Shown here piece by piece: positions 3,854 to 37,000 of a stretch of 48,688 bases of DNA. How positions within the stretch are numbered: the stretch's first letter is position 1; every line of letters starts with the position of its first letter. The position numbers and the translations under genes were made by a program. Below the pieces are notes generated by a model. The model saw only the letters and a program-made list of their open reading frames with translations, made no database searches and had not been told where the DNA came from. The stretch lies in NCBI GenBank assembly GCA_016288795.1, contig JAEELI010000015.1, positions 1 to 48,688 on the forward strand. Direction: 5' to 3'. Source of the stretch: Caryophanales bacterium (GTDB taxonomy: Bacteria; Bacillota_I; Bacilli_A; RF39; UBA660).

Positions 3854-3873
3854 ACTAATTACCTCCTTTTAAA

Positions 3874-6522: not shown

Positions 6523-6536
6523 TTTTTCCTCCTTTC

Positions 6537-7691
6537 TTAGGTTGTCGCATTAATACAAATATCCACAGCCTTATCATTAATTATTGATAAAATAAACTCT
6601 ATTAGAAGTGGTAATAAAAATATTACAACACAAATAACAATTCTTATAGCAGCCTTTTTCAACACTTTTTGTAATTCATCTTCATTATGAGAAGCAGTTG
6701 CGCTTATAAAATCCATTCCAGTCAATACTACTAAAAGCGCTATTGCAACATATCTAAGTATTTTAAATGCTTGAGATAAATACCAAGCCGGAGTTCCACT
6801 TGCAGTAGGATCTCCAAGCATGGATTCACAATTTGATGGAACTATAATTGGTGTTGCATTATCATCAAATTTTAATTTGTTTTTTATTTTTTCTGGATCA
6901 GATGTATCATCCATTGCTGTCATTTTAGTAAATCCACTTATTCTAGTGTATGATGGATAGTATATATATGAATCTTCACCATCAGATAATTTTTTAACCT
7001 TAACATACATAGGCACATTATCACACACTGTATTTTCCAAATATTTTTTATGTTTATCTTTTACATAAACAAAATTTTCTTTATAACTATTACCTCTATC
7101 ATCAGTTACTTTAAAAACAGCCTCTTCAGTATCAGGGTTATATGTCACTTTAAAATTTGGTATCTTATCATCGTGAATAGCAAATAAACACACTTTTGAA
7201 GTTGATGGTTCCTTTTCGCTTCCCTCAGGACGAAATGGTTTATTATTTGATTCCATTTTAGGAGTGATTATTCTACCAGTCTTTTGTGTAGTGCTATTAT
7301 ATTCAATTACAAATGTATCGTCCCCATCAACATCCAATAACCAATCTTTTGTTAAAACAATGTTTGGACATATTAATCCTTTAGGTTCTTCCTCACTTAT
7401 AAAGTCTCCATCAGTCATATGAGATTTTATGATTATAGTTTTATTATTATATTTTTTAGTCGTTGACAAATTGTTCTTTTCTACAATTTCAGCACTCCCA
7501 TTACCATCTGCTTTAATAATATAGAAAAAATTTGGGTCAGTAAACGCACTCTTAGCAGTGCCTTCGTATGTATAAGTACATTTAATACATTGAAGTGATT
7601 CGCTAGAACAATCAACAGCCGCCATTACTTTTACTTTTAATAAAGTTAATAAACAAATTGAGAATAAAAAATATTTTAATAATTTATTCAT
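6537..7691 (-). CDS. Secreted Cys-rich domain fused to VirB2-like two-helix domain (paralogue 1)
   Basis: A 384-residue protein. I place the start at ATG 7691 because GGTGAT lies 4 nt upstream; a TTG 12 bases earlier is also open. A signal peptide (1-25, ending VKVMAA) is followed by a mature N-terminus with spaced cysteines (DCSSESLQCIKCTYTYEG) shared with the next gene, and then an extracellular region of about 260 residues. The C-terminus has two transmembrane helices joined by an acidic-to-basic segment (ILRYVAIALL...HNEDELQKVLKKAAIRIVICVV), the pattern of T4SS pilin/VirB2-like proteins. It is first in its transcript, 14 bp before VirB6. The likely role is an envelope component of the secretion apparatus; the exact function is unknown. 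Confidence 0.75.
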   Translation of the reverse strand: MNKLLKYFLFSICLLTLLKVKVMAAVDCSSESLQCIKCTYTYEGTAKSAFTDPNFFYIIKADGNGSAEIVEKNNLSTTKKYNNKTIIIKSHMTDGDFISEEEPKGLICPNIVLTKDWLLDVDGDDTFVIEYNSTTQKTGRIITPKMESNNKPFRPEGSEKEPSTSKVCLFAIHDDKIPNFKVTYNPDTEEAVFKVTDDRGNSYKENFVYVKDKHKKYLENTVCDNVPMYVKVKKLSDGEDSYIYYPSYTRISGFTKMTAMDDTSDPEKIKNKLKFDDNATPIIVPSNCESMLGDPTASGTPAWYLSQAFKILRYVAIALLVVLTGMDFISATASHNEDELQKVLKKAAIRIVICVVIFLLPLLIEFILSIINDKAVDICINATT

Positions 7692-7715
7692 AAAAATCAC
7701 CAACTATTCATAATC

Positions 7716-7724
7716 ATTTTAACA
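7716..7724 (-). promoter_or_regulatory. Extended -10 promoter for the VirB6/VirB3/VirB4 unit
   Basis: Reading the minus strand, TGT immediately precedes a TAAAAT -10 box (7716-7721), 25 bp upstream of the start at 7691 and just after the terminator of the preceding gene. No good -35 is seen at 17 bp, consistent with an extended -10 promoter. Placement is by motif only. Confidence 0.45.
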
Positions 7725-7756
7725 CATATAAGAAATAAAAACCACTCTTTTTTATT

Positions 7757-7786
7757 TAAAAAATAAGGAAGTTTTACTTCCCTATT
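7757..7786 (-). terminator. Terminator between the two Cys-rich VirB2-like fusions
   Basis: On the minus strand GGAAG, a TAAAA loop and CTTCC (7767-7781) are followed by TTATTTTTT. It lies directly after the stop codon of the gene ending at 7788 and separates it from the VirB6/VirB4 unit. The 5-bp stem is short, so partial read-through is possible. Confidence 0.7.
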
Positions 7787-7787
7787 T

Positions 7788-8741
7788 TTACCTAGTACTC
7801 CTTTTTCCCTTTTCTTTATTGCCATCATTATTATTATCATTTTTTTCGTCTTTTTTTGTAGAATCATCATCGTTTTTCTTTTGCTTTTTACTTTGATCTT
7901 TTTTGTTATCATCATCAGATTCAGATGATTCAGGACATTCATTTACTTTAAAAATACACTTCGTGCAGTTACCAAACTGCGTATTATTACCATCTAATTC
8001 GTCTCCTACTACACCAGTAATATTTAAAAGGCCGTAAACTATAGATGGTGCCAAGAAAACTGCAAAGCCAGCTATTACCCTTTTCAGCAATGATTTACTA
8101 GCTTTATTGATTGCGTTTTCATCATTTGAAGTAATTGCTTTAAAGAAGTCTAAAACCCCAAATACTATTATTAAAATTGGAACTAGGTATTTGGATACCA
8201 AAACTACATAGCCAATTATTTTCATTGATTTTCTTACTCCGTCATTTTGGCAAATGTTTTCTAAATCAACATTAGGAACATACTTTGTTTCATCTGGTTC
8301 TTCTTCATCATATACTTGTAAGCCATTGGCGTTTTGAGAAATGGAAAAAGTAAGTTCCTTTCTAGTAATACCATTAGTTGAATAAACTCTAATTTGATGA
8401 TTCGGACCATCTTTAGGAGTATCTACCGTCGTTTCTTCATAAAATAACTCTTTAGAACATGTGAATTTATTATTGTCATCAACAAAATCTTCATCATGAA
8501 TATCTCCGCTTAGTATCTCATAATGATCTTCGTATGAACTTCCCCAAGTTCTATCTGAAATTAATTCATGGGAAACTTTTTTTCCATTACTATAAAATCT
8601 ATAAATTATCGATTTATTTTTGTATTTATACACACACTCTATACATGCATTAGTTTTGCAATCAGTAGCAGCATATACCTTTGTTAAACATAAGGATGCC
8701 ATAATTATTAAAAGACAACCCAAGAGCTTAATTTTATTCAT
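7788..8741 (-). CDS. Secreted Cys-rich domain fused to VirB2-like domain (paralogue 2)
   Basis: A 317-residue protein from ATG 8741 (GGTGAT 4 nt upstream; upstream ATG and GTG codons at 8747 and 8750 are also possible). A signal peptide ending KVYAA is followed by the Cys motif ATDCKTNACIECVYKYK, the same pattern as in the 384-residue neighbour, and an extracellular domain to about residue 160. Two transmembrane helices then flank NDENAINKASKSLLKRV, the VirB2-like domain. The last 60 residues are an extreme Lys/Asp/Ser/Asn-rich tail, probably disordered. It is flanked by terminators on both sides and so appears to be transcribed alone. It is a paralogue of the 384-residue protein, with the same domain order but a smaller outside domain. 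Confidence 0.78.
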   Translation of the reverse strand: MNKIKLLGCLLIIMASLCLTKVYAATDCKTNACIECVYKYKNKSIIYRFYSNGKKVSHELISDRTWGSSYEDHYEILSGDIHDEDFVDDNNKFTCSKELFYEETTVDTPKDGPNHQIRVYSTNGITRKELTFSISQNANGLQVYDEEEPDETKYVPNVDLENICQNDGVRKSMKIIGYVVLVSKYLVPILIIVFGVLDFFKAITSNDENAINKASKSLLKRVIAGFAVFLAPSIVYGLLNITGVVGDELDGNNTQFGNCTKCIFKVNECPESSESDDDNKKDQSKKQKKNDDDSTKKDEKNDNNNDGNKEKGKRSTR

Positions 8742-8765
8742 ATTCATCACCCACTATGTAATAAT

Positions 8766-8774
8766 ATTTTATCA
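8766..8774 (-). promoter_or_regulatory. Extended -10 promoter for the monocistronic VirB2-like fusion
   Basis: On the minus strand TGA precedes TAAAAT (8766-8771), about 25 bp upstream of the chosen start. No convincing -35 is present. The site lies between the preceding terminator and the gene, where a promoter is needed. Confidence 0.45.
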
Positions 8775-8803
8775 TATAAAAAGTATATTTACTAGATTTA
8801 TTA

Positions 8804-8834
8804 ATAAAAAAGCACTTCATTATTGAAGTGCTTT
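8804..8834 (-). terminator. Strong terminator after the VirB2-like pilin gene
   Basis: Arms GCACTTCA (8812-8819) and TGAAGTGC (8824-8831) make a perfect 8-bp stem with a 4-nt loop. On the minus strand it is followed by TTTTTTATTAA. It isolates the small pilin-like gene from the next gene. Confidence 0.9.
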
Positions 8835-8852
8835 AATGACTAATATAATCTA

Positions 8853-9263
8853 TTATTTGTTTGTTTTTTCTTCTGTAGTGTCATTCTTAGGTTCTAATGT
8901 TCCAGTATCAACAGTTAATTCTGATTTACAAATATCTTTATGAGCTGCTATATTAGTTAAACATTGCATACAAGTATTAATATCTTTAGTTGTATCATTA
9001 TAATTCATTTCAAATAATAAATTGAATAATGCACTAACTATAGTAGGAATAAAGAATACTATAACTGCAGCGATAAATCTTCTTATTAATTTACCTACAG
9101 CTTTATTAATTTCATCTTCCTTACTTGAAATAACTGCCTTTCCTAAATCGATCATTCCTAAAATGATTAAAACTAAAGGAATAACGATTTTAATAACCAT
9201 TACGAAATATCCTGCAGCACCCCATGCACCAGCAGTGTCTGCACAAAAACCACCTAATAACAT
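8853..9263 (-). CDS. VirB2/T4SS-pilin-like small membrane protein
   Basis: A 136-residue protein with two transmembrane helices (about 16-41 and 60-84) separated by SSKEDEINKAVGKLIRR, a layout close to the T4SS pilin-like family seen in Gram-positives and candidate phyla. The N-terminus (MLLGGFCADTAGAWGAAGY) may itself be the short exported end. A hydrophilic Cys-containing tail (about 85-136) follows. It has its own near-consensus promoter and a strong terminator, as expected for a subunit needed in large amounts. An AGAAGG site precedes ATG 9263. The same domain occurs in three other proteins of this locus; this is the minimal form and the best candidate for a structural VirB2 subunit. Polymerisation into a filament is inference. 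Confidence 0.8.
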   Translation of the reverse strand: MLLGGFCADTAGAWGAAGYFVMVIKIVIPLVLIILGMIDLGKAVISSKEDEINKAVGKLIRRFIAAVIVFFIPTIVSALFNLLFEMNYNDTTKDINTCMQCLTNIAAHKDICKSELTVDTGTLEPKNDTTEEKTNK

Positions 9264-10324: not shown

Positions 10325-10816
10325 TTAACTCTCCCGCTCTAATTTTTGGATAGCAGAATATAATTTAATAGCTTTAGTTTGCCCACGAATTTTAAAGTTA
10401 ATCAAATCACCCATAATTGGTAATTTAAATTTATAAAACAAACTTAAATCATACATTATAGTGCTATCGCTTTTAATCTTACAACCAGAATAGTTGCATC
10501 TTAACTTCAAACAGTAATAGTAGGTTTCATTTTTTTTGGCTTTTTCAAAGTTAGTAGTATTTAAATCACTAACTCCATATTCTTTTCCTTCTTCACATTT
10601 GCCTTTTTCTGTATATCCACTATTAACTAAATAATTATTAATAATACCTAAAGACTTATCACTAACGCCTTCATACTTTTCTATTATAGCTAAACTACCA
10701 TTTTTTAATCTAAATACTCTACTATAAGAAATTGCTACAGCTAAAAAACCAGCAAACAAGAAAGTAAACACTAGAATATATTTAAAAGTTGTAGTTGTAC
10801 CTGTCGCTTCTCTCAT
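10325..10816 (-). CDS. Pilin-like/TadE-like protein with MREATG start
   Basis: A 163-residue protein beginning MREATG, followed at once by a hydrophobic helix (about 13-32) and an exposed C-terminal domain with Cys pairs. It is a paralogue of the 170-residue neighbour: both have the MxEATG start, a TM, a G-x-C segment near residue 70, and a similar end (YDLSLFYKFKLPIMGDLINF here, YDVKVFYRLDVPIIKQLLNN there). The layout fits TadE/TadF minor pseudopilins, which have a short leader before the helix. The canonical Glu at +5 after the Gly is missing (TTTTF follows). It lies 9 bp after its paralogue and 2 bp before TadZ. The role as minor pilin is inferred from context. Confidence 0.75.
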   Translation of the reverse strand: MREATGTTTTFKYILVFTFLFAGFLAVAISYSRVFRLKNGSLAIIEKYEGVSDKSLGIINNYLVNSGYTEKGKCEEGKEYGVSDLNTTNFEKAKKNETYYYCLKLRCNYSGCKIKSDSTIMYDLSLFYKFKLPIMGDLINFKIRGQTKAIKLYSAIQKLERES

Positions 10817-10825
10817 TATATCCCC

Positions 10826-11338
10826 CTAGCTAGCACTTCCATATAATATTTTAGTTGATCCATCTAATGATAGATTATTCAATAATTGTTTAATAATAGG
10901 AACATCTAATCGATAAAACACTTTAACATCATAATAATACATTTTTCGCACTTCTTCGCTATATTTACACTTATCGTTAGTACATGCTTTTTCAGCAATT
11001 TTGCCATTAATTTTGTCCACATTATGAACTCTAATACAAACAACTGCATCGTTATTATTTTTGGTTCCATCCCTTTGATATCCAATCCAATCATTTGGAC
11101 AAGTTCCAGTAATACGATGTCCAGTTTTTTCTAAATGACTTACCATCTCTGATATAGCTGCAGAACTCAAGTTATTCGGAGCAGTGCTTAACTCATTATT
11201 TTGAATTATATTAATTACTTCATCTTTAACCGCAAATGCTTTTGAGTGATTAATTGTTAAACACATTATTCCCGTAAATAGTAAGATAAAAAGAATTACA
11301 ATTTGAACAACTGATATTCCACCTGTCGCTTCTTTCAT
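10826..11338 (-). CDS. Pilin-like/TadE-like protein with MKEATG start
   Basis: A 170-residue protein starting MKEATGGISVVQIVI, with one transmembrane helix (about 9-28) and a roughly 140-residue outside domain containing five Cys (some likely in disulfides, for example KACTNDKCKY). It is the closest relative of the next gene in the operon and shares the short conserved leader with the two small pilins upstream. The GKIAEK...VFYRLDVP region resembles the end of TadE-type proteins. It is likely a minor pilin or pilus-assembly subunit. Translation starts at ATG 11338 with AGGAGT upstream. Confidence 0.75.
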   Translation of the reverse strand: MKEATGGISVVQIVILFILLFTGIMCLTINHSKAFAVKDEVINIIQNNELSTAPNNLSSAAISEMVSHLEKTGHRITGTCPNDWIGYQRDGTKNNNDAVVCIRVHNVDKINGKIAEKACTNDKCKYSEEVRKMYYYDVKVFYRLDVPIIKQLLNNLSLDGSTKILYGSAS

Positions 11339-11348
11339 TTAATCACTC

Positions 11349-11600
11349 CTATCCTTTATATACACATTCGAATATATTTGATTCGTCACCTGGTAAATGA
11401 CACTTCACTGTTTTACAATTTGTTTTTGGTTTGCCAGCTGCATTAACACATTTTTCACAAACTGCTTTACTACATTGAGAATTATTATTAACATCTTGCC
11501 TAACTATAGGCCAAATTACATAGTAAAAAAAGGCCATTAGAACTCCAATAGCCAAAATCACAAAAACCGTGCTATTTAATTCTCCTGATGCCTCTTTCAT
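11349..11600 (-). CDS. Small pilin-like protein, MKEASG type
   Basis: An 83-residue protein. MKEASGELNSTVF leads straight into one hydrophobic helix ending FFYYVIWP, then a Cys-rich tail of about 50 residues with seven Cys. It is a paralogue of the 95-residue pilin upstream: both have ELN after the leader, FFYxVIWP and a Ser-x-Cys-Ser at the same spacing. The size and single N-terminal helix are like Flp-type pilins. No strong ribosome binding site is visible, so expression may depend on coupling to the gene 10 bp upstream. Confidence 0.8.
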   Translation of the reverse strand: MKEASGELNSTVFVILAIGVLMAFFYYVIWPIVRQDVNNNSQCSKAVCEKCVNAAGKPKTNCKTVKCHLPGDESNIFECVYKG

Positions 11601-11610
11601 AATTTATACT

Positions 11611-11898
11611 CTAGTTTCTATTGTCATTACATGTTCTAGTTGATGTCTTACTGCCTTGCTTATATTCACATTTTTGTGTAGCTCCTGCTGCTGCTGGTGG
11701 GCAAGTTATTTTCCAAGCATTGCTTCCTTCACCACCACTTGTCTTGTATTCTGCACCATTTGCAGCACTACAAGCACTAGACAAAGTCATACCTACCTTT
11801 AAGTTTGGCCATATAACTAAATAAAAGAATGCCAATAATGCAGCAACTGCAACTACAGTTACAACAGTCATATTTAATTCACCAGTTGCTTCTTTCAA
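11611..11898 (-). CDS. Small Flp-like pilin candidate (TTG start)
   Basis: A 95-residue protein starting at TTG 11898, with GGAGGAG six bases upstream; no ATG precedes the conserved KEATG leader. KEATGELNMT is followed by a hydrophobic helix (about 11-30, VVTVVAVAALLAFFYLVIWP), then a Gly/Ala/Ser-rich tail with four Cys. It is first in the pilin unit, behind a near-consensus promoter, as expected for a major pilin. In Flp prepilins a Gly-cleavage leader is followed by Glu at +5; here Glu is at +1 and +5 is Thr, so processing must be non-canonical or absent. Paralogous to the 83-residue neighbour. Confidence 0.82.
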   Translation of the reverse strand: MKEATGELNMTVVTVVAVAALLAFFYLVIWPNLKVGMTLSSACSAANGAEYKTSGGEGSNAWKITCPPAAAGATQKCEYKQGSKTSTRTCNDNRN

Positions 11899-12584: not shown

Positions 12585-13628
12585 TTAATCCACATAATTA
12601 GGTTTGTCTTGATTCTTTTGATATTCATTATAAGCCGAGTTGGTATACCCAAATGGATCACAATTTGGGCATGGGAACGAATAGAACTTATAATGATATT
12701 CCCCTTTATCACCATAGGTATAAATAATTGTTTTATCCCTAACATATTCATTTTTATTTTCTTTATTTCCCGTAGAACCATTGTTAACAATTTTAGAAAT
12801 ATCACCAAAATTATCATGTTCGTCAACGTATGGTGCTAAAAGCGTTCTATCACCATTTTTTACAACTGATCTAACCACAGAAACATAAGAATCGCCTGGC
12901 TCTTTATTTAACTCCAACCCTTCACAATTATCACCGGTTCCAGCATAACAATGGCCACAATGAAAGAAACTTCCTTTTGTTACATAATCATAAATATTTG
13001 AAAAACTACTACCATATAACTCATATCTATTAACCATGAGTTCTGCCTCAGCCCTTGCTCCTTGAACAGAACCTTGTTCACATTTAGCGATAACCGCTAA
13101 TGCTTTAATATCGCTATCGCTAATATTATATTTTCTACCTGTATTTGAACCTCCATCTGGAGTGCTAGGATTATATCTTGGAATAAAATACTTTTTAGAA
13201 TTTTCTTTTTTCTTTTCAGCTTCTTTTCTCAATCTTTCGGCTTCAATTTCGTTTTCTCTTTCATCTTTAGATATTTGGTTTTTCTTTTCTTTTTCATATA
13301 ATTCCTTATAGAAAGCTAAGTTATCAGAATTTTCTATACAACTAGATAAATCTAATGGAACTATAAAAGATTCATTGAATACATTAAATAGACTTTCTAC
13401 TAATGTCGGCATTATAAAAATAACTATTCCAGCAATAATTCGTTTTATTAAAGCATTAGTGGCTTTTTTTATCGAATCATCATCTTTATCAAGGACAGCT
13501 TTAAAAAAATCTATCATGCCTATAACTATTATTATTAAAGGAATAATTATGAGTAACACTCTAAAAGATTTTCTTAAAATTGAAAAAATATATAACGTTG
13601 GATAATTAGTACAAAAATCAGTATTCAT
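12585..13628 (-). CDS. VirB2-like two-helix domain fused to SleB-like cell wall hydrolase
   Basis: A 347-residue protein; ATG 13628 is chosen because AAGAGGAG lies 7 nt upstream (an earlier ATG at 13649 has none). Residues 17-80 hold the VirB2-like domain: helix, GMIDFFKAVLDKDDDSIKKA, helix. Next comes a charged coiled linker (about 105-150). The C-terminal 180 residues resemble SleB/CwlJ-type hydrolases: IKALAVIAKCEQGS with the probable catalytic Glu (about 184), then AEAELMVNRY (NR about 200-201), APYVDEHDNFGDIS, and a DPFGYT end. Such enzymes open peptidoglycan. In T4SS a VirB1-type hydrolase clears the wall; here it is tethered to a pilin-like membrane anchor. It follows TadC after a terminator. 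Catalytic activity is inferred from the motif. Confidence 0.72.
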   Translation of the reverse strand: MNTDFCTNYPTLYIFSILRKSFRVLLIIIPLIIIVIGMIDFFKAVLDKDDDSIKKATNALIKRIIAGIVIFIMPTLVESLFNVFNESFIVPLDLSSCIENSDNLAFYKELYEKEKKNQISKDERENEIEAERLRKEAEKKKENSKKYFIPRYNPSTPDGGSNTGRKYNISDSDIKALAVIAKCEQGSVQGARAEAELMVNRYELYGSSFSNIYDYVTKGSFFHCGHCYAGTGDNCEGLELNKEPGDSYVSVVRSVVKNGDRTLLAPYVDEHDNFGDISKIVNNGSTGNKENKNEYVRDKTIIYTYGDKGEYHYKFYSFPCPNCDPFGYTNSAYNEYQKNQDKPNYVD

Positions 13629-13667
13629 ATCAATACTCCTCTTAACCATTATACAACATCAAACAAA

Positions 13668-13694
13668 TAAAAAAAAGAAGTAAAACTTCTTTTA
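13668..13694 (-). terminator. Terminator after tadC
   Basis: AAGAAG (13675-13680) and CTTCTT (13686-13691) form a 6-bp stem; the minus strand continues with eight T's. It overlaps the tadC stop codon and ends the adhesin-CpaB-TadABC transcript. Confidence 0.8.
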
Positions 13695-14480
13695 TATATT
13701 CATCATTTGAACTACGGCTAAAACCAAAAGTATCATAACTCCAAAACCAGTGGACAATAACATCTTCATGGTTTTACCTTCCATCTTATCTAATCTATTT
13801 TTATACTTAGTCTCTCTTGCCTTTTGTTGTAGATTAGATATTGTTCTTGAAAACATTACCATTTGTTCTTGCTTTCTATCTTGACTACCAATACTCAAAC
13901 GGTATAAAAGTCTCATCATACGCATTGAGTCACGAACGGGATATTTTCTAGCAAAGTTCATGTATGGATTAATTGAATCATCACCGGCATTAATCTCGTT
14001 AATCATTTCTTGTAATCCATCTTTGAAAATATCTGGAGCGTCTAAAACACTCTTTCCTATGGCAACAGGAACAGTATAGTGTTGAATTAATATTTCGATA
14101 CTTTTCAAATAATGTGGCAACATACTATCTATTCTAAACATGTGACTTTTATATTTAGATTTATAATCAAAATAATCTAACTTAAATGTAATGAATCCTA
14201 AAACAATGGATAACAATATTTTCAAGCCATCTAAACTATTTAGAAAGAAGAATATTGCTATTACCATGACAATTAAACCATTTCTAATTCTTTTAGTAAA
14301 GATTGCATCTGAATTTACACTATCACCATGTCTAGCTCTAACATAGAAATCCCAATCGCTTTCTTTTAATTTCCTAAACAAATAGAAATTATCATTTACA
14401 AACTCTTTAATACTTAATTGTCCATTGTAAGACATTACGATGAAAACTAGAACTGTTAATATAATTATCTCAACTTGCAT
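13692..14480 (-). CDS. tadC: TadC-like inner membrane platform protein (GspF fold)
   Basis: A 262-residue protein of the T2SSF/TadB-TadC class. Transmembrane segments are at about 4-20, 67-80, 82-100 and 240-260. The cytoplasmic helical domain between them carries LPHYLKSIEILIQHYTVPVA and a distal RQDRK/REIS-like RTISNLQQKA stretch. This is the standard layout, with the F-domain helices preceding the last TM. It shares a TAATG overlap with tadB, so translation is coupled. TadB and TadC form the membrane platform above TadA. The family and order (CpaB-TadA-TadB-TadC) are clear; the split between TadB and TadC is by position. Confidence 0.85.
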   Translation of the reverse strand: MQVEIIILTVLVFIVMSYNGQLSIKEFVNDNFYLFRKLKESDWDFYVRARHGDSVNSDAIFTKRIRNGLIVMVIAIFFFLNSLDGLKILLSIVLGFITFKLDYFDYKSKYKSHMFRIDSMLPHYLKSIEILIQHYTVPVAIGKSVLDAPDIFKDGLQEMINEINAGDDSINPYMNFARKYPVRDSMRMMRLLYRLSIGSQDRKQEQMVMFSRTISNLQQKARETKYKNRLDKMEGKTMKMLLSTGFGVMILLVLAVVQMMNI

Positions 14481-15382
14481 TATTCAGCCCCCACATCTTC
14501 ATTATAATATTTTTCTCCAGAAATCAAGAAATAAGCATTTAATAAAATTATTGCATGCAGTATCAATTGAACATACCAGGTTCCTAATAACTCAATAAAG
14601 TTATCTTTTCCAAGTAATAATTCAACTACTAAAACTAGAGAAGATAAAACTAAGCCGAATGTTATAAATCTTGTGTGAAAGTTTCTTCTATCCATTTGGT
14701 CTCTATATACACCTTCAACAAGGGCGTCTATATCCATTGACATATTTTCTAATGATTCTCCAGCATCTTTAGCACCTTCTTTTGTAATTTGTAAGAATAA
14801 TTGATGCATGTTTTTAACCATATAGAATGGGTATTTTGAATTAAAATACTCAATTGATTCATCTATAGTTCCATTTTTATAAGATAAATCTATCATTTTA
14901 GATATATCTCCTAAAACCGGCTCTTCTACGATTCCAGAGTCACGAACACCTTCAAGTGACTTAACAAAACTTTGTGTTGTATTAAACTCCATTATAACGT
15001 TTGTTGTATAAGTTTGAATTTGTTCAAATATAAATTCACTATATATTCTTTGGCATCTTAGATATGCTAAATATGGAATTATAGCAATTGCTGCAGTAGC
15101 ATAAACTATTCCCCAAATAATACTATAAAAATAGAAATATCCAAGGATTCCTGCTACACCTCCCAAAGCAACAACTTGAAAAGCATATTGTCGAGTTGTA
15201 TATTCTTGTCCTAATTCTTTAGCTTTTTCCCTAACCATCTTAAATGAGTATGGTGAAAAGCGATCATAAACAGCTCCTGCTTGTTCTAAAAAGTTTTTAT
15301 ATTTACTCTGATCTTTAGTTCTAGCAATCACAATTATTAATCCTATGAGTAATAATATTCCAAGTTCTGGCAAAGTTTTCAT
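14480..15382 (-). CDS. tadB: TadB-like inner membrane platform protein (GspF fold)
   Basis: A 300-residue protein. An N-terminal helix (about 8-20), paired helices near 70-105, a cytoplasmic GspF-like domain (about 110-230; EQIQTYTTNVIMEFNTTQSF, GAKDAGESLENMSMDIDALV), and C-terminal helices near 235-258 and 270-290. The Gly-Glu-Ser-Leu-Glu-x-Met-Ser segment is typical of T2SSF domains. It lies directly after tadA with an AGAAGGTG site before ATG 15382 and overlaps tadC. It acts with TadA in pilus assembly. Confidence 0.85.
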   Translation of the reverse strand: MKTLPELGILLLIGLIIVIARTKDQSKYKNFLEQAGAVYDRFSPYSFKMVREKAKELGQEYTTRQYAFQVVALGGVAGILGYFYFYSIIWGIVYATAAIAIIPYLAYLRCQRIYSEFIFEQIQTYTTNVIMEFNTTQSFVKSLEGVRDSGIVEEPVLGDISKMIDLSYKNGTIDESIEYFNSKYPFYMVKNMHQLFLQITKEGAKDAGESLENMSMDIDALVEGVYRDQMDRRNFHTRFITFGLVLSSLVLVVELLLGKDNFIELLGTWYVQLILHAIILLNAYFLISGEKYYNEDVGAE

Positions 15383-15396
15383 TAGACACCTTCTTC

Positions 15397-16491
15397 CTAT
15401 AGCGAATCTATTTCATCTTTTGAATTATTTTCTGTGTATTCACTAAATATTTCTTCTTTTAATATAACACCCTGACTTCCTAAATACTCTCTTAGGTATT
15501 TAGTTGGATTTTTAAATGCTATTTTTCCATCCAAGCTTTTCTTAAAAATAACATTATATAAAGCCTCATTATCTTCAGTTACAAAGAACTCAGTAACTTC
15601 AACAATCTCTCTTTGGAAACGTCCTAGTTCTTGACTCATGTAGCCTTTAACATGAATAGCTAATTGAACATACCTATGAATAGATTTTAAGAATTGATCT
15701 ATATCTTGATTAGATTCAAGCAAACTATACATACGCATAGGAACGTTTCTAGCACTATCAGAGTGGATTGTTGATAAAATATTATGACCTGATGATATTG
15801 AGTTACGAACGGCCATTACCGCTTCAGCACTACGAACCTCGGATAGTAATATCCATCTTGGGTTTTGTCGCATACATGCAACTAAAACGTCTGAATATCC
15901 AGCAATATTATTGGTTTTCATAGCTACTATGTCTCTATGAGGAAATATTTTATCTAAGTGTAATTCCAAAGTGTCTTCTATTGTAATTACTTTTTCATTT
16001 TCACCTATATGACTAGCTAAGTATTTAACAAGTTCTGTTTTACCTGAGCCAGTTTCTCCACTAACAATAATATTGCAATGGCCTTGAACACAAGTTAATA
16101 AGAAATTTAATAATTCCTCAGTAACATATTTTTCATTTATTAATTTTTCTTTATTTAGTCTTATTTTTGCTGGCGTTTTTCTTATTGTGCAAGCAATTCC
16201 ATTGGTAGCAATGGAATCATGCACAAAGTTTAAACGTAATTCAGCACTTTCGGCATCGAGTAAAGGATGAGCCATATTAAAGGTTTTACCCATTACATTA
16301 GAGCATTGAAAAGCTAGCTTTTCTAATAAAGCATTATTTATTTCTGGCCTTTCAATTGGATATACACCTTTATCTAAAGTTTTTAAGTGAATTTGACCAC
16401 CATTACTATAGGAAATATCGGTAACGTTGTCGTCATCTAAAAATTCTTTTAAAGGACCAAAATCAATTTGTGAAAATATAGCATCATTCAC
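15397..16491 (-). CDS. tadA: TadA/CpaF-like (VirB11-superfamily) secretion ATPase
   Basis: A 364-residue protein from GTG 16491, with GAGAGG five bases upstream. An N-terminal domain (1-130) includes LRLNFVHDSIATNGIACTIR. The motor follows: Walker A GETGSGKT (145-152), Asp box TIEDTLEL (170-177), Walker B WILLSEVR (213-220), His box GHNILSTIHS (235-244) and MRM (252-254). All catalytic elements are intact. TadA powers Tad pilus assembly and belongs to the same superfamily as VirB11, so in this locus it might also serve the T4SS proteins, which otherwise lack a VirB11. The gene follows CpaB and precedes tadB by 14 bp. Confidence 0.93.
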   Translation of the reverse strand: MNDAIFSQIDFGPLKEFLDDDNVTDISYSNGGQIHLKTLDKGVYPIERPEINNALLEKLAFQCSNVMGKTFNMAHPLLDAESAELRLNFVHDSIATNGIACTIRKTPAKIRLNKEKLINEKYVTEELLNFLLTCVQGHCNIIVSGETGSGKTELVKYLASHIGENEKVITIEDTLELHLDKIFPHRDIVAMKTNNIAGYSDVLVACMRQNPRWILLSEVRSAEAVMAVRNSISSGHNILSTIHSDSARNVPMRMYSLLESNQDIDQFLKSIHRYVQLAIHVKGYMSQELGRFQREIVEVTEFFVTEDNEALYNVIFKKSLDGKIAFKNPTKYLREYLGSQGVILKEEIFSEYTENNSKDEIDSL

Positions 16492-16530: not shown

Positions 16531-17298
16531 TTAATATACTATAGTAGCAGATTTATTCATTATATAATTATATAGAAAATCACTAACTATTTTTGTTTCC
16601 CCTGGATTCTTTGTATAAGATGAGTTTCTTGGAACTGGTTTAATTTTGATATTTGCTTCTTCAGCTACTTCTAATAATTTTGCATATTCATCAGGAACAG
16701 CAAATAATAGGTATGAAGAATCTCCAGCGCTTGAATCCCAGAATACATCTCTACCACTTGAATCTCTAACAGATAAAACATTAATACTTTCAATTAGTTT
16801 TCCGTATAATATTTGACCATCATCGCCTCTTGATAGAACATATAAGTCTATGTAATCGCCTGGATATATTGAATTGGCGTAAGTAGTTTCCATATTAACA
16901 CTAAGTTCATATAATGTGTAACCATCAGCAATATTGTCTAATACTGAATTAGGTAAAGCATCTTTTTCACAAACTTGAGATTTGTAAAAGAATCCATTAG
17001 TTGGAATACTTGTTCCAATACAGACATATTTTCCTTCAAGATAACTAGCATCAGTAACAATATCACTATCTTTAACTGTTGATCTGGTTATTTCTTTATA
17101 CTCAATATTGTCAGATTCAATCAATTTTCCAGTATCAATCTTCTCAACAGCATAGGGAATGCTTATTGTAGTTATTGCTTGACTAACTCTATAGTTATAG
17201 AAATACCATAGAACAAGAACACCAGCAATTACAGCAATTAATGTAACTGTGTTTTTGTTTCCTATAAATCTTTTAATTGTATTTACTAAACTTCCCAT
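16531..17298 (-). CDS. cpaB: CpaB/RcpC-like SAF-domain pilus assembly protein
   Basis: A 255-residue protein with one N-terminal transmembrane helix (about 18-35) and an outside SAF/RcpC region: TISIPYAVEKIDTGKLIESDNIEYKEI at about 44-70, then YELSVNMETTYANSIYPGDYIDLYVL (about 128-154), the characteristic GDxVD element. It ends with a variable tail. CpaB guides Tad pilins across the outer layers. It sits in the expected place before TadA. The family assignment rests on fold-like motifs and synteny. Confidence 0.83.
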   Translation of the reverse strand: MGSLVNTIKRFIGNKNTVTLIAVIAGVLVLWYFYNYRVSQAITTISIPYAVEKIDTGKLIESDNIEYKEITRSTVKDSDIVTDASYLEGKYVCIGTSIPTNGFFYKSQVCEKDALPNSVLDNIADGYTLYELSVNMETTYANSIYPGDYIDLYVLSRGDDGQILYGKLIESINVLSVRDSSGRDVFWDSSAGDSSYLLFAVPDEYAKLLEVAEEANIKIKPVPRNSSYTKNPGETKIVSDFLYNYIMNKSATIVY

Positions 17299-17312: not shown

Positions 17313-17717
17313 CTATTTTCTAGTTTCTAATATTGCATCAACTCTTGTAGCCATATCAAATGTTTCTGAAGTAGTTGTTACTGTATATGGTTGAGTTCCA
17401 CTAACAATTTCTACGCTCGCTTTAGGAGGAGCTTCATAAACAGCAGTAAATGTCAAAGTATAATCTGTTGTAATATCTGCTACATCAGCAAATCTTCTTA
17501 AGAAACTTTCAATATACTTCTCTTTGTTTATTTTTAACTCCCCGTATTCGCGATAATAAGCGTAATCAACAGCTTCAGTCATCGCTGCTTCTGATATTTG
17601 CTTTATAGTATAAGAGTCGAAGGTGTTATTGGAGGTAACATTTCTAATTAGTAGCATTATAACTACTACGAATATACCTAAAACAACTAACCAATATCCC
17701 CAATAAGCTTGCTTCAT
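17313..17717 (-). CDS. TadE-like single-pass protein at head of the Tad genes
   Basis: A 134-residue protein. MKQAYWG is followed by a hydrophobic helix (about 8-26), then a roughly 105-residue outside domain (VDYAYYREYGEL, ESFLRRFADV, AVYEAPPKASVEIVSG). It looks like a minor pilin of the TadE kind, with a short leader and N-terminal helix, but has no conserved Glu after the leader. Strong AAGGAGG upstream. It is 14 bp before CpaB and 18 bp after the large adhesin, linking the two. Confidence 0.72.
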   Translation of the reverse strand: MKQAYWGYWLVVLGIFVVVIMLLIRNVTSNNTFDSYTIKQISEAAMTEAVDYAYYREYGELKINKEKYIESFLRRFADVADITTDYTLTFTAVYEAPPKASVEIVSGTQPYTVTTTSETFDMATRVDAILETRK

Positions 17718-17735: not shown

Positions 17736-20700
17736 CTATTTCCAAGATGGTCCAACATTTATATTAGAACCATAACCTGTTTTAAAGTATGCTAATTCAT
17801 GAGTTGTAGTAATACTCCATCTAGCTGCGTCTTTATCAATTGCTTCAGTCCATAATGTCCAGTATTCAGTATTTGCACCATTATTTCTCTCTGATTTACT
17901 TCTTGGTCTAGGAACACCAAATTTAATTTCAGAACTATAATGATCTACTAAATCATCAATAAAGTCACTATAACACATTATATTACTATAAGTATTTCCA
18001 TCGTCATCGTTATAATCATAACAAGTTAAATTTCCATTTACATATGTATCAATCTTTTCATTTTCTTCTCTGATATGACTAATAATGCCACTAGTCATAT
18101 GAATCTTCATAGCAAATTTGTTACTCTTGACTACATTATCGGTTTCAAGATCATATATCTTTTCACCATCTTCAATAATCTCTTCAGTTGTAACTTTTGC
18201 CTTTAATTCTTCAGCAGTATCAACATTTTCACTATATTGCCAGTTGCTTCCAAGTTCTCTATTATTTGGATTTAAATCACTTGTTGTAACTGAACGATAG
18301 TCAAATTCATATCCACCGTTTCCAGGTTTACAAACCTTAGTGAATGAAACCTTATCAGGTAATATTTGTCCAGCTGGTCCATAATATACTCCATTAACCT
18401 TTAGACATTCATAGACTTGTGGACAATCAGGTTCATCACATGTTTTGCATAATTCTGCAAATTGTTCCCTGGCCGTTTTAGCTATTGTTCCGCCTGAATA
18501 TATATCTTTTAATACCTCAGAATTTGGCCCATAATATACACCATTAACCTTTTGACATTTATAATATGTTGGGCAATCAGGACAACAATGTCGTTGAACA
18601 CAGACTTCTCTGCCTTCTTCAGCAACACATTCGGTTATATCTCTATCTTCAAATGGAGGTGGACAATATTCTCTTTCATCCGGACAATTATGTTCAATAC
18701 AATAATTTAAGTTATGTGTTTTTAAACAATCGGATATATCCACATTTTCAAATGGAGGAGGACATTTATCTTTCAACTTACAATTGTTTTCAACACAGTA
18801 ATCTAAATCATGTGTTTTTAAACAATTTGTTAAATCGATGTGTTCCATTGGTGGTGGACATGGATGTCCTCCACCACCTGGACAGTATTCTTGAATACAT
18901 TGTCCCTCAGTCTTAGTTTCCATACATTCTGTAATATCTATCTTTTCACCACTAGATGTTTCACAATAATAAGGTCTATCATCAATAGAATATTTACATG
19001 TCCAAATTCCGTTTTTATTTAGATTGCCTTTAGATTTAGATTCAGCTTTACATACAGTATTATCTTCTAAATATTGTGTTAGAACACTTTTACTTCCACC
19101 TATTAATCTTCCAAGTTTTTGAGTTTCAAAGTATTCACCAACATTTTTAAGAGTAAGTGAGAAATCATAAGTTCCTTTAGCATTAAATCTAACAGGTAAT
19201 CCGTTTTCTAATTCTGTAGCGGTTGTTCCTGATAAATCATCATATTTACTAACAATTGTTCCACTATCGTGTAGTGTTGCAAATTGTGTTGGAGTTTTAT
19301 AACTTGCTGTTTTATTAATTTTTCTAGTTACATATCTAACGTCATCATATTCTACACTCATAGAATGTGTTCCACTATCATCAGTATATGAAACTGTTTT
19401 TGTTTTTGTAGCTGGAGAACTAGCCATATTTGAACCACCACATGAGGTGTAATTGTTATCGATGGTATCTTTTGAACAATATGAACTTGCTTCACTTGTT
19501 GCTGTTGCACCTTTTTCTAGTTCGGCAGTTTTCTTAATATTATAATAACCAGTTTCTTCATATTTAAATGTTATTGTTGGATCAAATTTATAATCAATTG
19601 AATTTAAATCAGTACAACTAGAATATTGTTTAACATAACTGTTAATTTTTGATTTAGTTCCAGCTTTTTCCAAATCGCTTAAAAATTTATCTGTATTTAT
19701 TTTAGAGGTGTAACATGTTTTTGATCCAGTTACTTTAGCGGTTAATTGGAAATATCTACCACTATCTACATTTTGATTTCCTGGTAAAGATAACTTATAA
19801 TCTTCTTTACAATAGACCTTACAATATCTATTATCTGAAACCTCATATGAGTTACCAACAGGGTCTTCATTATTAATAATACATTCTTTAACATTTAATT
19901 TATTTGTAACAGTACAATTACCAGCAGGTCCAGATATTTCATAACCTTCTTTTATTGAAACAGCAGAACTTGCTCCAGTGCTTGAACAACTACCATTTTC
20001 TACTCTTACTTCACATTGTGGTTTAGAACAAGAACTTTCATATTTCTCTTCAAAAAGTTTACAATCCTCTTCATTTTTGTCTACATTACAACTTTTTTCT
20101 AATTGTTCACAAGTAGGTTCACATAATCTGAAGTCTTTATTATCAACGTCTGCGTCTGCATCCTTAGATGATGGTATTAAGCCATCAATATCTGTGAAAT
20201 AGAAACTTTGAACATTTCCTTTTTTACTTGCACTAGAATGCATGTCATAATATTTTGAAGATAATTCAGCATCACTATATTTCACTTTTAAGAAGTATTC
20301 TACTGTTTCAGCATTACACTCCTCTTGAGATACTTCAACAATAACTTTAACTTTTCCAGTTCCATTAGTTACACTATCCGCATTTAATAAGTTTGCTCTA
20401 ACAATAGTTTTTGCCGAATCAGCATACGTTTTAACTGGGTTTTTACTATCATTTATATATAAATTATATTTAACGTTATTAGCTTTGCAATCTGGACAAC
20501 TCAAATCAAGATAAGCATAAGATCCAGAAGATTTAAAGTTTTTTAAAGTAAATTCATATTGATAAGCCTTAGCATTTTTCGCACCAGTTGAAACTGCTTT
20601 TGCAGAATTTTTCCAAGTTATAGATGAGCCTGATATTCCTTTTTTATAATCGATAGCTGCATCCAACCCTTTATTAACTAAAGTCCTAATATTTTTAATT

Positions 20701-21440
20701 ATAGTTTCTTCAGAATGGCCATCAACTCCACTCCATTCAATATTAACACTTTTTATATTACGCCAATTTAATTTAACTATATTGTTTTTGCATCCTCCAG
20801 ATGATGCACAGAATGTATCTTTTAATTGTCTTAATTTTGCTTTAGTTGTATCATCATTCAAAACTTTATCTGTTACATAAACGTGCATATAATGATATGA
20901 TTTACTTAAAATTCCACTAAAATTATCAACTAAACTACTATAATTTGGGGCCATCATCTCATATGTTCTTAATGCAAATTGAGTTATGAAATAATCGTAG
21001 TCAGAATTTCTTGTTTTTCCGTTATAACCTTGTTTAAATATTTCTGTAATACCTGCCCAGTAGATATTTGCGTCAGGTCCAGATTCTGGTTTAACTTGAT
21101 CAAAAACTAGCTCATCACATGAGAATTTTTTATCGCTATCACTTTTCCTAGCTTCTCTACCAGGGTTACGACAGTATCCAACATATTCCTTTCCAGTTCC
21201 ATCCTTTTTTCTATTAAGAATATATTTATAAAGCGTTCTATTCGGTGCTGTATAAGTCTTTGTCTTTCCATCACTTGTATATTTTACCGTAATTTCATAA
21301 TGAACCTTAGTTGGTTTTTTAAAATCACCACTATCATAAAGATAAAAACCGCTCGGACAAGAAGCCGCTCTAGCAACATTCAATCCAAATACTGACAACA
21401 CTATTGCTATAATTATTTTACTTAATTTTTTCATAATCAT
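17736..21440 (-). CDS. Large secreted Cys-rich adhesin with thioester-type (TED) domain
   Basis: A 1234-residue secreted protein: signal peptide to about residue 25 (VARAA), then a region with the two hallmarks of Gram-positive thioester domains, YVGYCRNPG (Cys90) and FITQFALRTY (Gln154), 64 residues apart. Those residues would form an internal Cys-Gln thioester that can bond covalently to host or surface amines. The middle part is beta-rich with many Cys. Residues about 820-960 hold tandem Cys-rich units, and about 960-1020 hold two copies of a C-x-KVNGVYYGP unit. No LPXTG, C-terminal helix or wall-binding motif is present, so retention is by another route, perhaps as a pilus tip subunit. 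Start ATG 21440 overlaps the previous stop (ATGA). Thioester chemistry is inferred; the Trp of the usual TQxAxW motif is Arg here. Confidence 0.75.
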   Translation of the reverse strand: MIMKKLSKIIIAIVLSVFGLNVARAASCPSGFYLYDSGDFKKPTKVHYEITVKYTSDGKTKTYTAPNRTLYKYILNRKKDGTGKEYVGYCRNPGREARKSDSDKKFSCDELVFDQVKPESGPDANIYWAGITEIFKQGYNGKTRNSDYDYFITQFALRTYEMMAPNYSSLVDNFSGILSKSYHYMHVYVTDKVLNDDTTKAKLRQLKDTFCASSGGCKNNIVKLNWRNIKSVNIEWSGVDGHSEETIIKNIRTLVNKGLDAAIDYKKGISGSSITWKNSAKAVSTGAKNAKAYQYEFTLKNFKSSGSYAYLDLSCPDCKANNVKYNLYINDSKNPVKTYADSAKTIVRANLLNADSVTNGTGKVKVIVEVSQEECNAETVEYFLKVKYSDAELSSKYYDMHSSASKKGNVQSFYFTDIDGLIPSSKDADADVDNKDFRLCEPTCEQLEKSCNVDKNEEDCKLFEEKYESSCSKPQCEVRVENGSCSSTGASSAVSIKEGYEISGPAGNCTVTNKLNVKECIINNEDPVGNSYEVSDNRYCKVYCKEDYKLSLPGNQNVDSGRYFQLTAKVTGSKTCYTSKINTDKFLSDLEKAGTKSKINSYVKQYSSCTDLNSIDYKFDPTITFKYEETGYYNIKKTAELEKGATATSEASSYCSKDTIDNNYTSCGGSNMASSPATKTKTVSYTDDSGTHSMSVEYDDVRYVTRKINKTASYKTPTQFATLHDSGTIVSKYDDLSGTTATELENGLPVRFNAKGTYDFSLTLKNVGEYFETQKLGRLIGGSKSVLTQYLEDNTVCKAESKSKGNLNKNGIWTCKYSIDDRPYYCETSSGEKIDITECMETKTEGQCIQEYCPGGGGHPCPPPMEHIDLTNCLKTHDLDYCVENNCKLKDKCPPPFENVDISDCLKTHNLNYCIEHNCPDEREYCPPPFEDRDITECVAEEGREVCVQRHCCPDCPTYYKCQKVNGVYYGPNSEVLKDIYSGGTIAKTAREQFAELCKTCDEPDCPQVYECLKVNGVYYGPAGQILPDKVSFTKVCKPGNGGYEFDYRSVTTSDLNPNNRELGSNWQYSENVDTAEELKAKVTTEEIIEDGEKIYDLETDNVVKSNKFAMKIHMTSGIISHIREENEKIDTYVNGNLTCYDYNDDDGNTYSNIMCYSDFIDDLVDHYSSEIKFGVPRPRSKSERNNGANTEYWTLWTEAIDKDAARWSITTTHELAYFKTGYGSNINVGPSWK
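18583..18980 (-). repeat. Cys-rich tandem repeats in the adhesin
   Basis: Four imperfect units, each about 27-33 codons, with the pattern CPPPxExxDIxxCLxxxxLxYCxxxxC (first unit lacks the CPPP start). DNA copies are recognisable by tggaggaggaca-like blocks near 18655, 18755 and 18850. The conserved CxxxD..C...C spacing suggests small disulfide-linked modules. Confidence 0.75.
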
Positions 21441-22174
21441 TTTTTCCTGCTCTTTCTTTTCTTAATAACCACTACTGGAGTTATTATCGCAACAATGCCA
21501 GCACCAACACCAATTATTATCCATTTATTCTCGTCAATAAATTTAAAGACATTATCAAAGAAAGTTGTTTTACTTTTTGTTTCTTCCCCTTTATCATTTA
21601 TTTTACCAGCTTGAAAGCTTTCAAGTTTTTTATAAAACGTTTCCGAATCGATTTCATCAAAAGTAACATATCTTTTACATAGATAAAATTCTTCTAAATC
21701 ATCACACATAGCTAAATATGAAAAATTATTAAAATGGGGAGTTGTTAGATAAAGTTTTTTATAAGATTCGCCAGTGCATGAAGTTTTGTTTGAAGAATAA
21801 ACTTCAATAGTCCAGTTTGTTACCTCTTCATTGTTCTCCCATTTAAAGGTCAAAACTCCATTTTGGGTATCACTATAATTATATACTTTATTAACGATTC
21901 TTTCTTCCTCTTCTGTTTCTTTTTTGTCTCTTTTGACTACAACATAAAATTCTTCAGATAAGTTATATATGGATATATTAAAATACTCTTCTATTCCCTC
22001 ATCTTCACCATCAGTTACTAAATTTGAGACAACTTCATAATTCGCTGTTATATTCGCGGCTTTTTGTTTTAAGCTTGCTTCTTCATTAACATCGCATGCC
22101 GATGCAGCATAAACATTTATGCCAAGCAAAAAGAAAGCAATCATAAAAGTTAAAAATTTCTTCACCAAAAGCAC
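21437..22174 (-). CDS. Secreted protein with C-terminal membrane anchor, first gene of the Tad transcript
   Basis: About 245 residues. The start is uncertain: GTG 22174 or GTG 22165 (which reads VKKFLTFMIAF) both fit the AAGGTAGG region. A signal peptide ends at VYAASA, followed by an outside domain with several Cys, a helical segment, and a C-terminal transmembrane helix (about 213-234, NKWIIIGVGAGIVAIITP) with a basic tail KKRKSRKK. The layout resembles sortase-anchored proteins but no LPXTG is present, so it is a type I membrane protein. It overlaps the adhesin start and is probably its membrane partner or anchor; that role is inferred only from coupling. Confidence 0.75.
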   Translation of the reverse strand: MLLVKKFLTFMIAFFLLGINVYAASACDVNEEASLKQKAANITANYEVVSNLVTDGEDEGIEEYFNISIYNLSEEFYVVVKRDKKETEEEERIVNKVYNYSDTQNGVLTFKWENNEEVTNWTIEVYSSNKTSCTGESYKKLYLTTPHFNNFSYLAMCDDLEEFYLCKRYVTFDEIDSETFYKKLESFQAGKINDKGEETKSKTTFFDNVFKFIDENKWIIIGVGAGIVAIITPVVVIKKRKSRKK

Positions 22175-34066: not shown

Positions 34067-37000
34067 TCACTTTACTATTATATATCTTATTATTTCACCA
34101 ATCATTGTATCATTATCATATAGTCTAAATGCCAACCTATACGTTCCGGTTAATAATTCATCTTCCATTAATAATACAAATTCATTAACGGCATTTGGAT
34201 CATCAACCAGTAAATATTCATTAGTATTAGTCGTTCCAAATAATTGTTGATCTATATAATCTTGTAAATCTACTAATTCATAATTAGTATCATATACTGT
34301 ATCATATTTTCTACGGTATAGTGCTAATCTAATATTTGGATTTTCTAATAATGAAGTATAATTAATTGTAAATTTTAAATTCTTATCATTATTAGCACTA
34401 AAGATAACACTATCATCATCCATAATTGGATTTAATCCATAGACACTGCTAATTATAGTTATTGGAATATTAGTAACTGTTGGGTTACCTTTACTATAAT
34501 ATATTCCATCTGGAGATGCAAAGTTTTCTACTACAAAGGTATAACTACCTGAGGCTAATGTTGAGTTATCACTATTAAAAATCAACCATTTTTCTGTATT
34601 ACCTACTTTATTAGCTAACTTAATATGGGTATAGCCATTTATATCCGGATAGTAAATAGTATTATCCACCATAAAATATGTTCCGGTTAAGTCTGTTCCA
34701 GATAAAACATTTCCTTGACTATTCTTAATATATATTTGTGCCCCTAATTTATTATCAAAATATTGAGTATCAGTAATACTTACACCATTTAAAGTTGTAC
34801 TTTCATAGCCGATTACAGCATCAAATATATCATCATAACCAATATATAATGGATTATCACTAGGTGTAATTGTAACATCTAGTTGAGAATCACTATTAGC
34901 ATATAAATTATAAGTTAATTGAGAATGTTGAATACCTAAAACAGTTATTATAGTTTCTTCATTAGCGTCCCGCATCTCTATTAAGAGAGTATTACCTAGT
35001 TGATTTTGGTTTATTTGGGTATCACCAAAATCAACAATGAACACAAACTCTTCACTACTATCTGTTCCATCATAATATAAGGCATTTTTAGTTGCATCCA
35101 CATAATTACTTGTATTACTCTTGCTGCCCATTTTAGTAAATAATGAGAAAGCATACGAGCATTCACCTTCAAGATTATACTCTGCTACTGCATTGTTATA
35201 ATCTGTTTGAGAAATAACATGATAATAGTATTCAGGGGTTCCTTGAACAAAATCTAACATTGTTATTTTTGTTCCAACTGGAAGTATGTAAGATGATGAT
35301 AAAACACGATGATATCCAGTTTGATATAGATTTGTATTAGAAGCATAAATACCATAATATGCACTTAATTTACTCTTAGTAGTTATGTTATTAGCAGTAG
35401 ATGCAAATAACTCATATTTATCACCAGGAGTCATAGCTCCTTCATATTCAGTAGTTTGGAACATTGCTGTAGACATATTAACATTTATAACTAATCTTTT
35501 TACTTCATTAGATAAAGCACTAAGTTTAGTTATTGCCATAACTGATATTCTTACTGTTCCTAAATCTTGAGTTAATGAAATATTTTTAGAGTGGTATAAA
35601 TAGAATAACATAGTTGGCACAACGTTAGAATTTTCACCTTCATAATATGTTGTTCCACCAATACTTGGCTCTCTAGTATAGAATGATGTTTTACCAGTTG
35701 TTAGCCAACCATTGTTAGATGATTCCATAGATAATCCAAATTTAGTATTAGCATCATTTTCAGTCGCAGCAATTCTAGGAATATTATTTTTATCTATTAA
35801 TGAAATACCTGAAGCAATTTCACTACTATCAAATGTTAATATTTGGAATGAAGTATTAGGTTTAGAGAACTCTAAGAATGATGTTTCAACAGAACCTAAA
35901 GTAGAATATTTAGATGCAACTAGGTTAACATTATATTCTATAACATTTTCACCAATAAACCACATATAGAAACGTCCACTTTCAGGAGTAGGATTAATAT
36001 AATCTACTTCATTTATTTGGGTTTCTTCATTAATGAAATTACTATAAAATCCGTCTACTTTAATATTATGATTTGCAACGTGAGCTCCTAAAACATAACT
36101 ACCACGACTAAATGTTCCTTCCCATGGCAATGTTGCTCCAGCAGCATAGCTACTGTTATAAATACCATTATTAACGTTATTATCATTATCATAATTGAAT
36201 ATTCCAAAGAAAGTCATTCCTTTAACTTCTCCGTAATCAGTAACTTGTTGGTCTTTTGCTATATTTAAGTTTCTACCTTCATACATATAAATACGATTAT
36301 CGGTTGTTCTTGATAAAGTATTTGTATCTGTATTTATTGTAACAGACGCATAATTATTATTATTATCTAAACTTTCAAATCTTTCTAATAAGTTTGCTCC
36401 AGTTTCAAAATATACTTCTGTATTATTCTTAATCTTAAATAATTTAACACGGCTGACAGAGAATAATTCAGTATCATATTCATTTGCTCTATCTATTGCA
36501 CCTTTTAATAATATAGATGAATTATCTATAGTTACATAATCTACTCTTTGGATAGAAACATTTCTCTTAATATTACTTCTAGATCCATAATTTTTGATTA
36601 ATAAGTAACTATCTCCACTTGCAGATGATGCATTACCACCACCATAGAATGATCCACCAATTGTTAGATTATTATAATTACTACCATCTACAATAATATT
36701 TGTTCCTTCGGTAACACTGATGAAATACCAGTCGTATATTTCTGATCCACTTGCATTAGCTTCACCACCACCGAAGATATGACCTTTTATATAAATGTCG
36801 CTTTTTATTAAATTACTATTAGTTAAGGCTTGAGCACCAATATTTACATTAGTATTACCATATATTACCGCTGTATTGGCACCTCCATAAACGTTACCGT
36901 AAATAGTGCCTCCAACTATATTAACTGAAGTTGTTACATCAGACATTTCTGTTCCTGTGTATGCTTGATTTCCTCCACCAAATACACTTCCAGAATGAGG

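Follow-up and report, generated by a model that had tools for sequence, protein, structure and literature searches.

A predicted Class II-like thioester domain in a cysteine-rich secreted protein encoded beside Tad- and T4SS-type genes

Within the stretch of DNA analysed here (the window, 48,688 nucleotides), from an uncultured bacterium of gut type, a gene adjoining Tad-type genes encodes a 1234-residue protein, P0001, which a first-pass annotation took to be a thioester-domain (TED) adhesin without a sortase signal. The locus raises the questions of whether P0001 carries a TED, which two residues would form its internal thioester, and what such a protein would do beside a Tad-type machine. 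By combining conservation among relatives, family searches and structure comparison, we hypothesize, with a probability of roughly three in four, that P0001 is a Sec-exported surface adhesin with a Class II-like TED, whose bond would join Cys90 to Gln411, and that it serves a Tad/T4SS-like apparatus. The original proposal is thereby upheld as to the domain (by conservation, near-threshold Pfam TED matches in relatives and the structure comparison) and the setting, and abandoned as to the Gln. The features of the gene and its neighbours are collected in Table 1.

Table 1. Coordinates of P0001, its parts and its neighbours in the window
Feature	Position	Strand	Basis
245-aa partner (signal peptide, C-terminal TM, basic tail)	21437..22174	-	4-base overlap with P0001
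P0001, 1234-aa secreted Cys-rich TED protein	17736..21440	-	ORF and coordinates confirmed
Signal peptide, about residues 1-26 (approximate boundary)	21363..21440	-	hydrophobic N-terminus; predicted cleavage site ...ARA-AS
Thioester domain, about residues 27-425, Class II-like	20166..21362	-	AF2 model, structure matches, conservation
Cys90 codon, predicted thioester Cys	21171..21173	-	79/79 relatives; codon checked
Gln154 codon, earlier candidate; helix motif TQxxPhi(W to R)	20979..20981	-	Gln in 5/79
Arg158 codon, conserved Arg at Trp position of TQxxPhiW	20967..20969	-	74/79
Gln411 codon (VQSFY), predicted bond-forming Gln	20208..20210	-	74/79; motif control; codon checked
Stalk region, about residues 505-830; conserved, beta-rich, Cys-containing	18951..19928	-	
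Cys/Pro-rich tandem repeat, period 96 bp (32 aa)	18627..18861	-	
C-terminal module, residues 1050-1175	17916..18293	-	in 100/108 proteins of the slot
C-terminal tail GPSWK	17739..17753	-	GP[AS][WYFM][KR] in 44/56 related TED proteins
DUF5411 protein	17313..17717	-	PF17424, E 3.9e-49
CpaB/RcpC-like protein	16531..17298	-	TIGR03177 E 7e-9, RcpC E 2.8e-5, both below cut-off
CpaF-type ATPase	15397..16491	-	T2SSE, E 9.5e-30
Two membrane proteins, TadB/TadC-like	13692..15382	-	position and size; no family match

The N-terminal domain of P0001

The only residues fully conserved in TEDs are the bond-forming Cys and the bond-forming Gln (PMC4450167, PMC6194298). The Cys sits in a [YFL]C-Phi-zeta motif, whereas the Gln has a weak motif of its own, PhiQzetaPhiPhi, which lies on a late strand; a third motif, TQxxPhiW, is helical, occurs in most but not all TEDs, and contains a Gln and a Trp that are both dispensable for the bond (PMC4450167, PMC6194298). 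In SfbI the bond Gln is Gln261 (PMC4450167).

At the level of sequence the domain is hard to recognise. P0001 itself has no match to the Pfam TED family (PF08341) or to a TED model in NCBIfam, and a PF08341 search of its own genome was without match, with the controls likewise silent. Among 33 relatives, PF08341 was the Pfam family matched by most members, and the five that matched it scored no higher than 21.5 bits, where the cut-off is 22. A phmmer search with P0001 found nothing among PDB sequences, and a profile of the 33 domains retrieved designed helical proteins and a weak match to Cpa (2xi9, E 0.88). The sequences suggest a divergent TED subclass that the Pfam model would miss, with an Arg at the position of the helix Trp and a long spacing between Cys and Gln.

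The structural comparison is more informative. An AlphaFold2 (AF2) model of residues 27-452, built from 33 sequences (pLDDT 80.4, pTM 0.82), contains the barrel and three-helix bundle of the TED fold: Cys90 ends a strand, residues 154-158 are helical, a beta-sandwich follows the helices (model strands 247-376, between the last long helix at 218-240 and the Gln strand at 386-391), and Gln411 starts a late strand. The annotation had proposed comparing a predicted structure with TED folds, and the five best solved matches of the model are indeed all TEDs (6fwv, Z 12.0; 6fwy, 11.9; 2xic, 10.1; 4bug, 9.7; 5a0l, 8.3), the last of them, SfbI, standing barely above the first unrelated structure (Z 8.0). 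Foldseek likewise placed BaTIE first (E 6.5e-5), with low TM-scores (0.33). Given the beta-sandwich insertion and the identity of the two top matches, Class II is the better description. The structure alignments end at model 393 with SfbI 269 and at model 391 with Cpa 581, which is consistent with Gln411 lying on SfbI Gln261 and on Cpa residue 575 (which we take to be the bond Gln), if the last strand is ungapped. As computed from model, matches and conservation, the N-terminus of P0001 is very probably a TED.

The rest of the protein was characterised by sequence scan. P0001 contains 51 Cys and starts with a signal peptide of the Sec type, so Sec export is indicated. The annotated lack of an LPXTG was borne out, as the scan found no LPXTG-like sortase motif; nor did it find, as a membrane anchor, any hydrophobic segment past the signal peptide. 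The stalk has no Pfam match to Cna-type isopeptide or ester domains, and its model (pLDDT 63) is too weak to assign a fold.

The probable partner of Cys90

A codon check confirmed the positions of Cys90 in GYCRNPG and of Gln154 in FITQFALRTY, the two residues that had originally been paired. The computed conservation, by contrast, favours a different Gln. In the 33-domain alignment 19 of the 33 fragments ended 40 residues past the candidate Gln, and one earlier alignment had been cut at the Gln motif and was thus biased toward Gln; because these fragments had been cut relative to the candidate, the comparison was repeated on 79 relatives with fixed windows, from Cys-45 to Cys+440, that were not selected on Gln. 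In this main alignment Cys90 is Cys in all 79 sequences (preceded by Y, F or L in 78), the Gln411 column is Gln in 74, the Gln154 column is Gln in 5, and the Arg158 column, at the Trp position of TQxxPhiW, is Arg in 74. Across the 33 aligned domains the invariant residues are Cys90, Arg158 and Gln411, and the closest relatives all keep Cys90 and a Gln within VQSFY, CQHFY, CQEFY or RQRFY, while column 154 holds T, N, E, A or S. In 36 of 49 independent relatives the expected span contains a strict Q-motif, compared with 8% of control windows taken downstream and 7% of shuffled ones. P0001 departs from the published motifs at two points: it reads TQFALR where the helix motif has TQxxPhiW, and its Cys motif, YCRN, has R at the Phi (+1) position, which is usually hydrophobic (L, I, M) in relatives. 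The Cys90-Gln411 spacing is 321, compared with 171-204 in Class II examples (from residue numbers in PMC6194298).

These alignments point to Gln411 as most likely the bond partner of Cys90. Conservation among orthologues, named in the first-pass annotation as a check, fails for Cys90-Gln154 and holds for Cys90-Gln411, and IFKQGYN, which had been listed as an intervening TED motif, is absent from the TED motifs described in PMC4450167 and PMC6194298. That the thioester joins Cys90 to Gln154 is hardly credible: both residues are present in P0001, and Gln154 lies in a TQxA-like motif that is near the Cys in known TED folds, but few relatives keep a Gln at that column, and Cpa does not need the equivalent Gln to form its bond, which in solved TEDs is made by a different Gln (PMC4450167, PMC6194298). 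Since TQxxPhiW is separate from the bond-Gln motif, FITQFALRTY is to be read as the helix motif. The residue to mutate is accordingly corrected to Gln411, with Gln154 as contrast.

It is also quite improbable that the fold is TED-like without a thioester and that Cys90 is engaged in a disulfide, for example with Cys108. The richness of P0001 in Cys, and a Cys at the 108 column in 39 of the 79 relatives, would suit such a bond; the retention of Cys90 in every relative would not. Moreover, Gln411 is kept about equally in sequences with a second nearby Cys (44 of 47) and without one (30 of 32), so a second Cys does not predict it. This argues against Cys90 being conserved for a disulfide with Cys108, and that explanation of its conservation was rejected.

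A conserved locus with variable heads

The gene does not lead its transcript, as had been supposed, but comes second, after the overlapping 245-aa ORF upstream. On the minus strand the order is the 245-aa protein, P0001, DUF5411, CpaB-like, CpaF, the two membrane proteins and a T4SS_pilin-like protein, continuing with pilin-like ORFs, more T4SS_pilin-like proteins, a large membrane protein, a PrgI-like protein and VirB4 in two ORFs. Tad-type genes follow P0001, as annotated; within this machinery CpaF is clear and CpaB weak, while TadB/TadC and the pilins are assigned by position only. The best-placed promoter-like site (22221-22193) precedes the 245-aa ORF, in a scan that yielded 97 sites against 94 by chance, and a terminator-like hairpin lies at 8834-8809. 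Elsewhere in the genome there is one prepilin peptidase match, and the genome has three sortase matches; no VirD4-type coupling protein was found in this 93% complete genome.

Several further features of the window, all on the minus strand, were observed in passing. T4SS-type genes follow the Tad-type genes at 1211-9263, with the VirB4-like ATPase split over two ORFs. Four consecutive small ORFs at 10325-11898 have N-terminal hydrophobic segments and all start with MKEA[ST]G or MREATG; they are pilin-like in look, with no strong match to a pilin family. At 12585-13649 a T4SS_pilin-like membrane segment is fused to a C-terminus that resembles, by inspection only, a SleB/CwlJ-type hydrolase, and a 2913-aa ORF occupies 34067-42808.

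A protein search of 145 family genomes gave matches in 18. Synteny was used to depend less on similarity: DUF5411 is present in 119 of the 145 genomes, and 116 stretches were collected, nearly all around its gene, from which 108 ORFs of at least 380 aa directly upstream of DUF5411, the window's own included, make up the slot set. A scan of genome contigs added 61 loci, mostly from MAGs titled uncultured Bacilli. In a sample of 288 genomes from the order, 66 genomes, in 22 of 102 genera, matched the TED profile. As computed over independent loci, DUF5411 lies directly downstream of 48 of 56 TED genes (four others are at a contig edge and four have other neighbours), and a small ORF lies directly upstream of 55 of the 56. 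Gene order kept to this degree argues for a functional link but does not place the protein, so the earlier proposal that P0001 is a pilus tip or is secreted through the machine stays a conjecture.

The slot itself is heterogeneous. Judged by a profile of the Cys/helix region and inspection (the last few, of the TQxxPhiW kind, by eye), 28 of the 108 slot proteins are TED-type. A profile of residues 505-605 nevertheless matches 84 of the 108, including 58 of the 80 without a recognised TED, and one of residues 1050-1175 matches 100, including 72 of those 80; among 1211 other ORFs at the same loci, used as a control, the two profiles match 5 and 14, which from their lengths and positions we read as tandem copies or fragments of the slot protein. 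This sharing across the slot indicates a single protein family whose members mostly have the C-terminus in common and differ at the N-terminus. None of the profiles matches eight of the slot proteins, which may be unrelated to the family.

At some loci (L082, L149, L150, L161 and L200) two TED proteins of the slot type stand in tandem. Slot proteins without a TED (L055, L072, L075, L098 and others) share an N-terminal pattern, R[IL]T[VF]VD..G with LVEP, perhaps a different adhesive head. The motif GP[AS][WYFM][KR] directly abuts the stop codon in 44 of 56 related TED proteins, as against 2 of 80 proteins without a TED, and is possibly a sorting or docking signal.

Proposed function and comparison with known systems

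The mechanism that we infer, from bond formation through covalent adhesion to docking, would run as follows. P0001 would be exported by Sec and fold with disulfides; Cys90, which lies on a barrel strand, and Gln411, on a late strand beyond the helices and the beta-sandwich insertion, would condense spontaneously to an internal thioester with loss of 17 Da. A target nucleophile, probably a Lys side chain, would open the thioester, leaving the cell covalently attached through Gln411. The Cys-rich stalk is probably disulfide-bonded, and the C-terminal module would tether the adhesin either to the 245-aa partner in the membrane or to the Tad/T4SS-like apparatus itself, near which that module or the partner would display it.

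Two other functions deserve consideration. P0001 may be an effector of the machine that is released or exported and modifies its target covalently after leaving the cell; we consider this unlikely. The absence of a sortase motif or TM anchor, despite the genome's sortase matches, and the conserved C-terminal tail would fit an effector, but the Sec-type signal peptide speaks against one, and the large stalk and the membrane-anchored neighbour at 55 of 56 loci better suit a surface protein that is held. Very improbable, in our judgement, is a role in DNA transfer, with the adhesin joining donor and recipient for conjugation. VirB4 and T4SS_pilin-like genes share the locus, and TIE-pLS20, a Class II TED without LPXTG, is required for conjugation (PMC8092201); however, no VirD4-type protein was found in the 93% complete genome, and the prevalence of DUF5411 in the family fits a core chromosomal locus better than a mobile element.

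A held surface adhesin remains our preferred reading, and it would widen the range of covalent thioester adhesins to include a locus that is widespread among uncultured Bacilli, and link TEDs to Tad/T4SS-like genes; the literature searched contained no paper combining 'thioester domain' and 'Tad pili'. More tentatively, and at rather less than even odds, these Bacilli may display or deliver TEDs without sortase by a hybrid Tad/T4SS-like machine, with interchangeable heads on a shared C-terminal docking module.

The closest structural counterparts of the P0001 model are the Class II TEDs BaTIE (6FWV, Z 12.0) and EfmTIE86 (6FWY, Z 11.9), which have the same YC-motif Cys, late-strand PhiQzetaPhiPhi Gln and beta-sandwich between the helices and the Gln strand. 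P0001 differs from them by its longer Cys-Gln spacing, the Arg for the helix Trp, the lack of LPXTG, and a Cys-rich stalk, in which Pfam matched none of their Cna-type isopeptide domains. Cpa (Spy0125), at the pilus tip of Streptococcus pyogenes, is likewise a pilus-associated TED adhesin (2XIC, Z 10.1; 4BUG, Z 9.7); its pilus is sortase-assembled, whereas P0001 occurs with Tad-type genes and without a sortase signal. An operon predicted to be secretion-related unites CpaF, a PilC/GspF-type protein, DUF5411 and an adhesion/invasion-type protein, but belongs to Clostridia genera and has an Internalin-B-like protein, with no TED mentioned in the portion of the source consulted (PMC9523054). TIE-pLS20 (p34), the conjugation adhesin of Bacillus subtilis pLS20, resembles P0001 in its Class II TED, signal peptide, lack of LPXTG and accompanying T4SS-type genes (PMC8092201). 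It belongs to a plasmid conjugation system, whereas P0001 belongs to a family-wide Tad/T4SS-like locus with no VirD4 found; even so, TIE-pLS20 is a precedent for a Class II TED that lacks LPXTG and yet works in a T4SS-linked process (PMC8092201).
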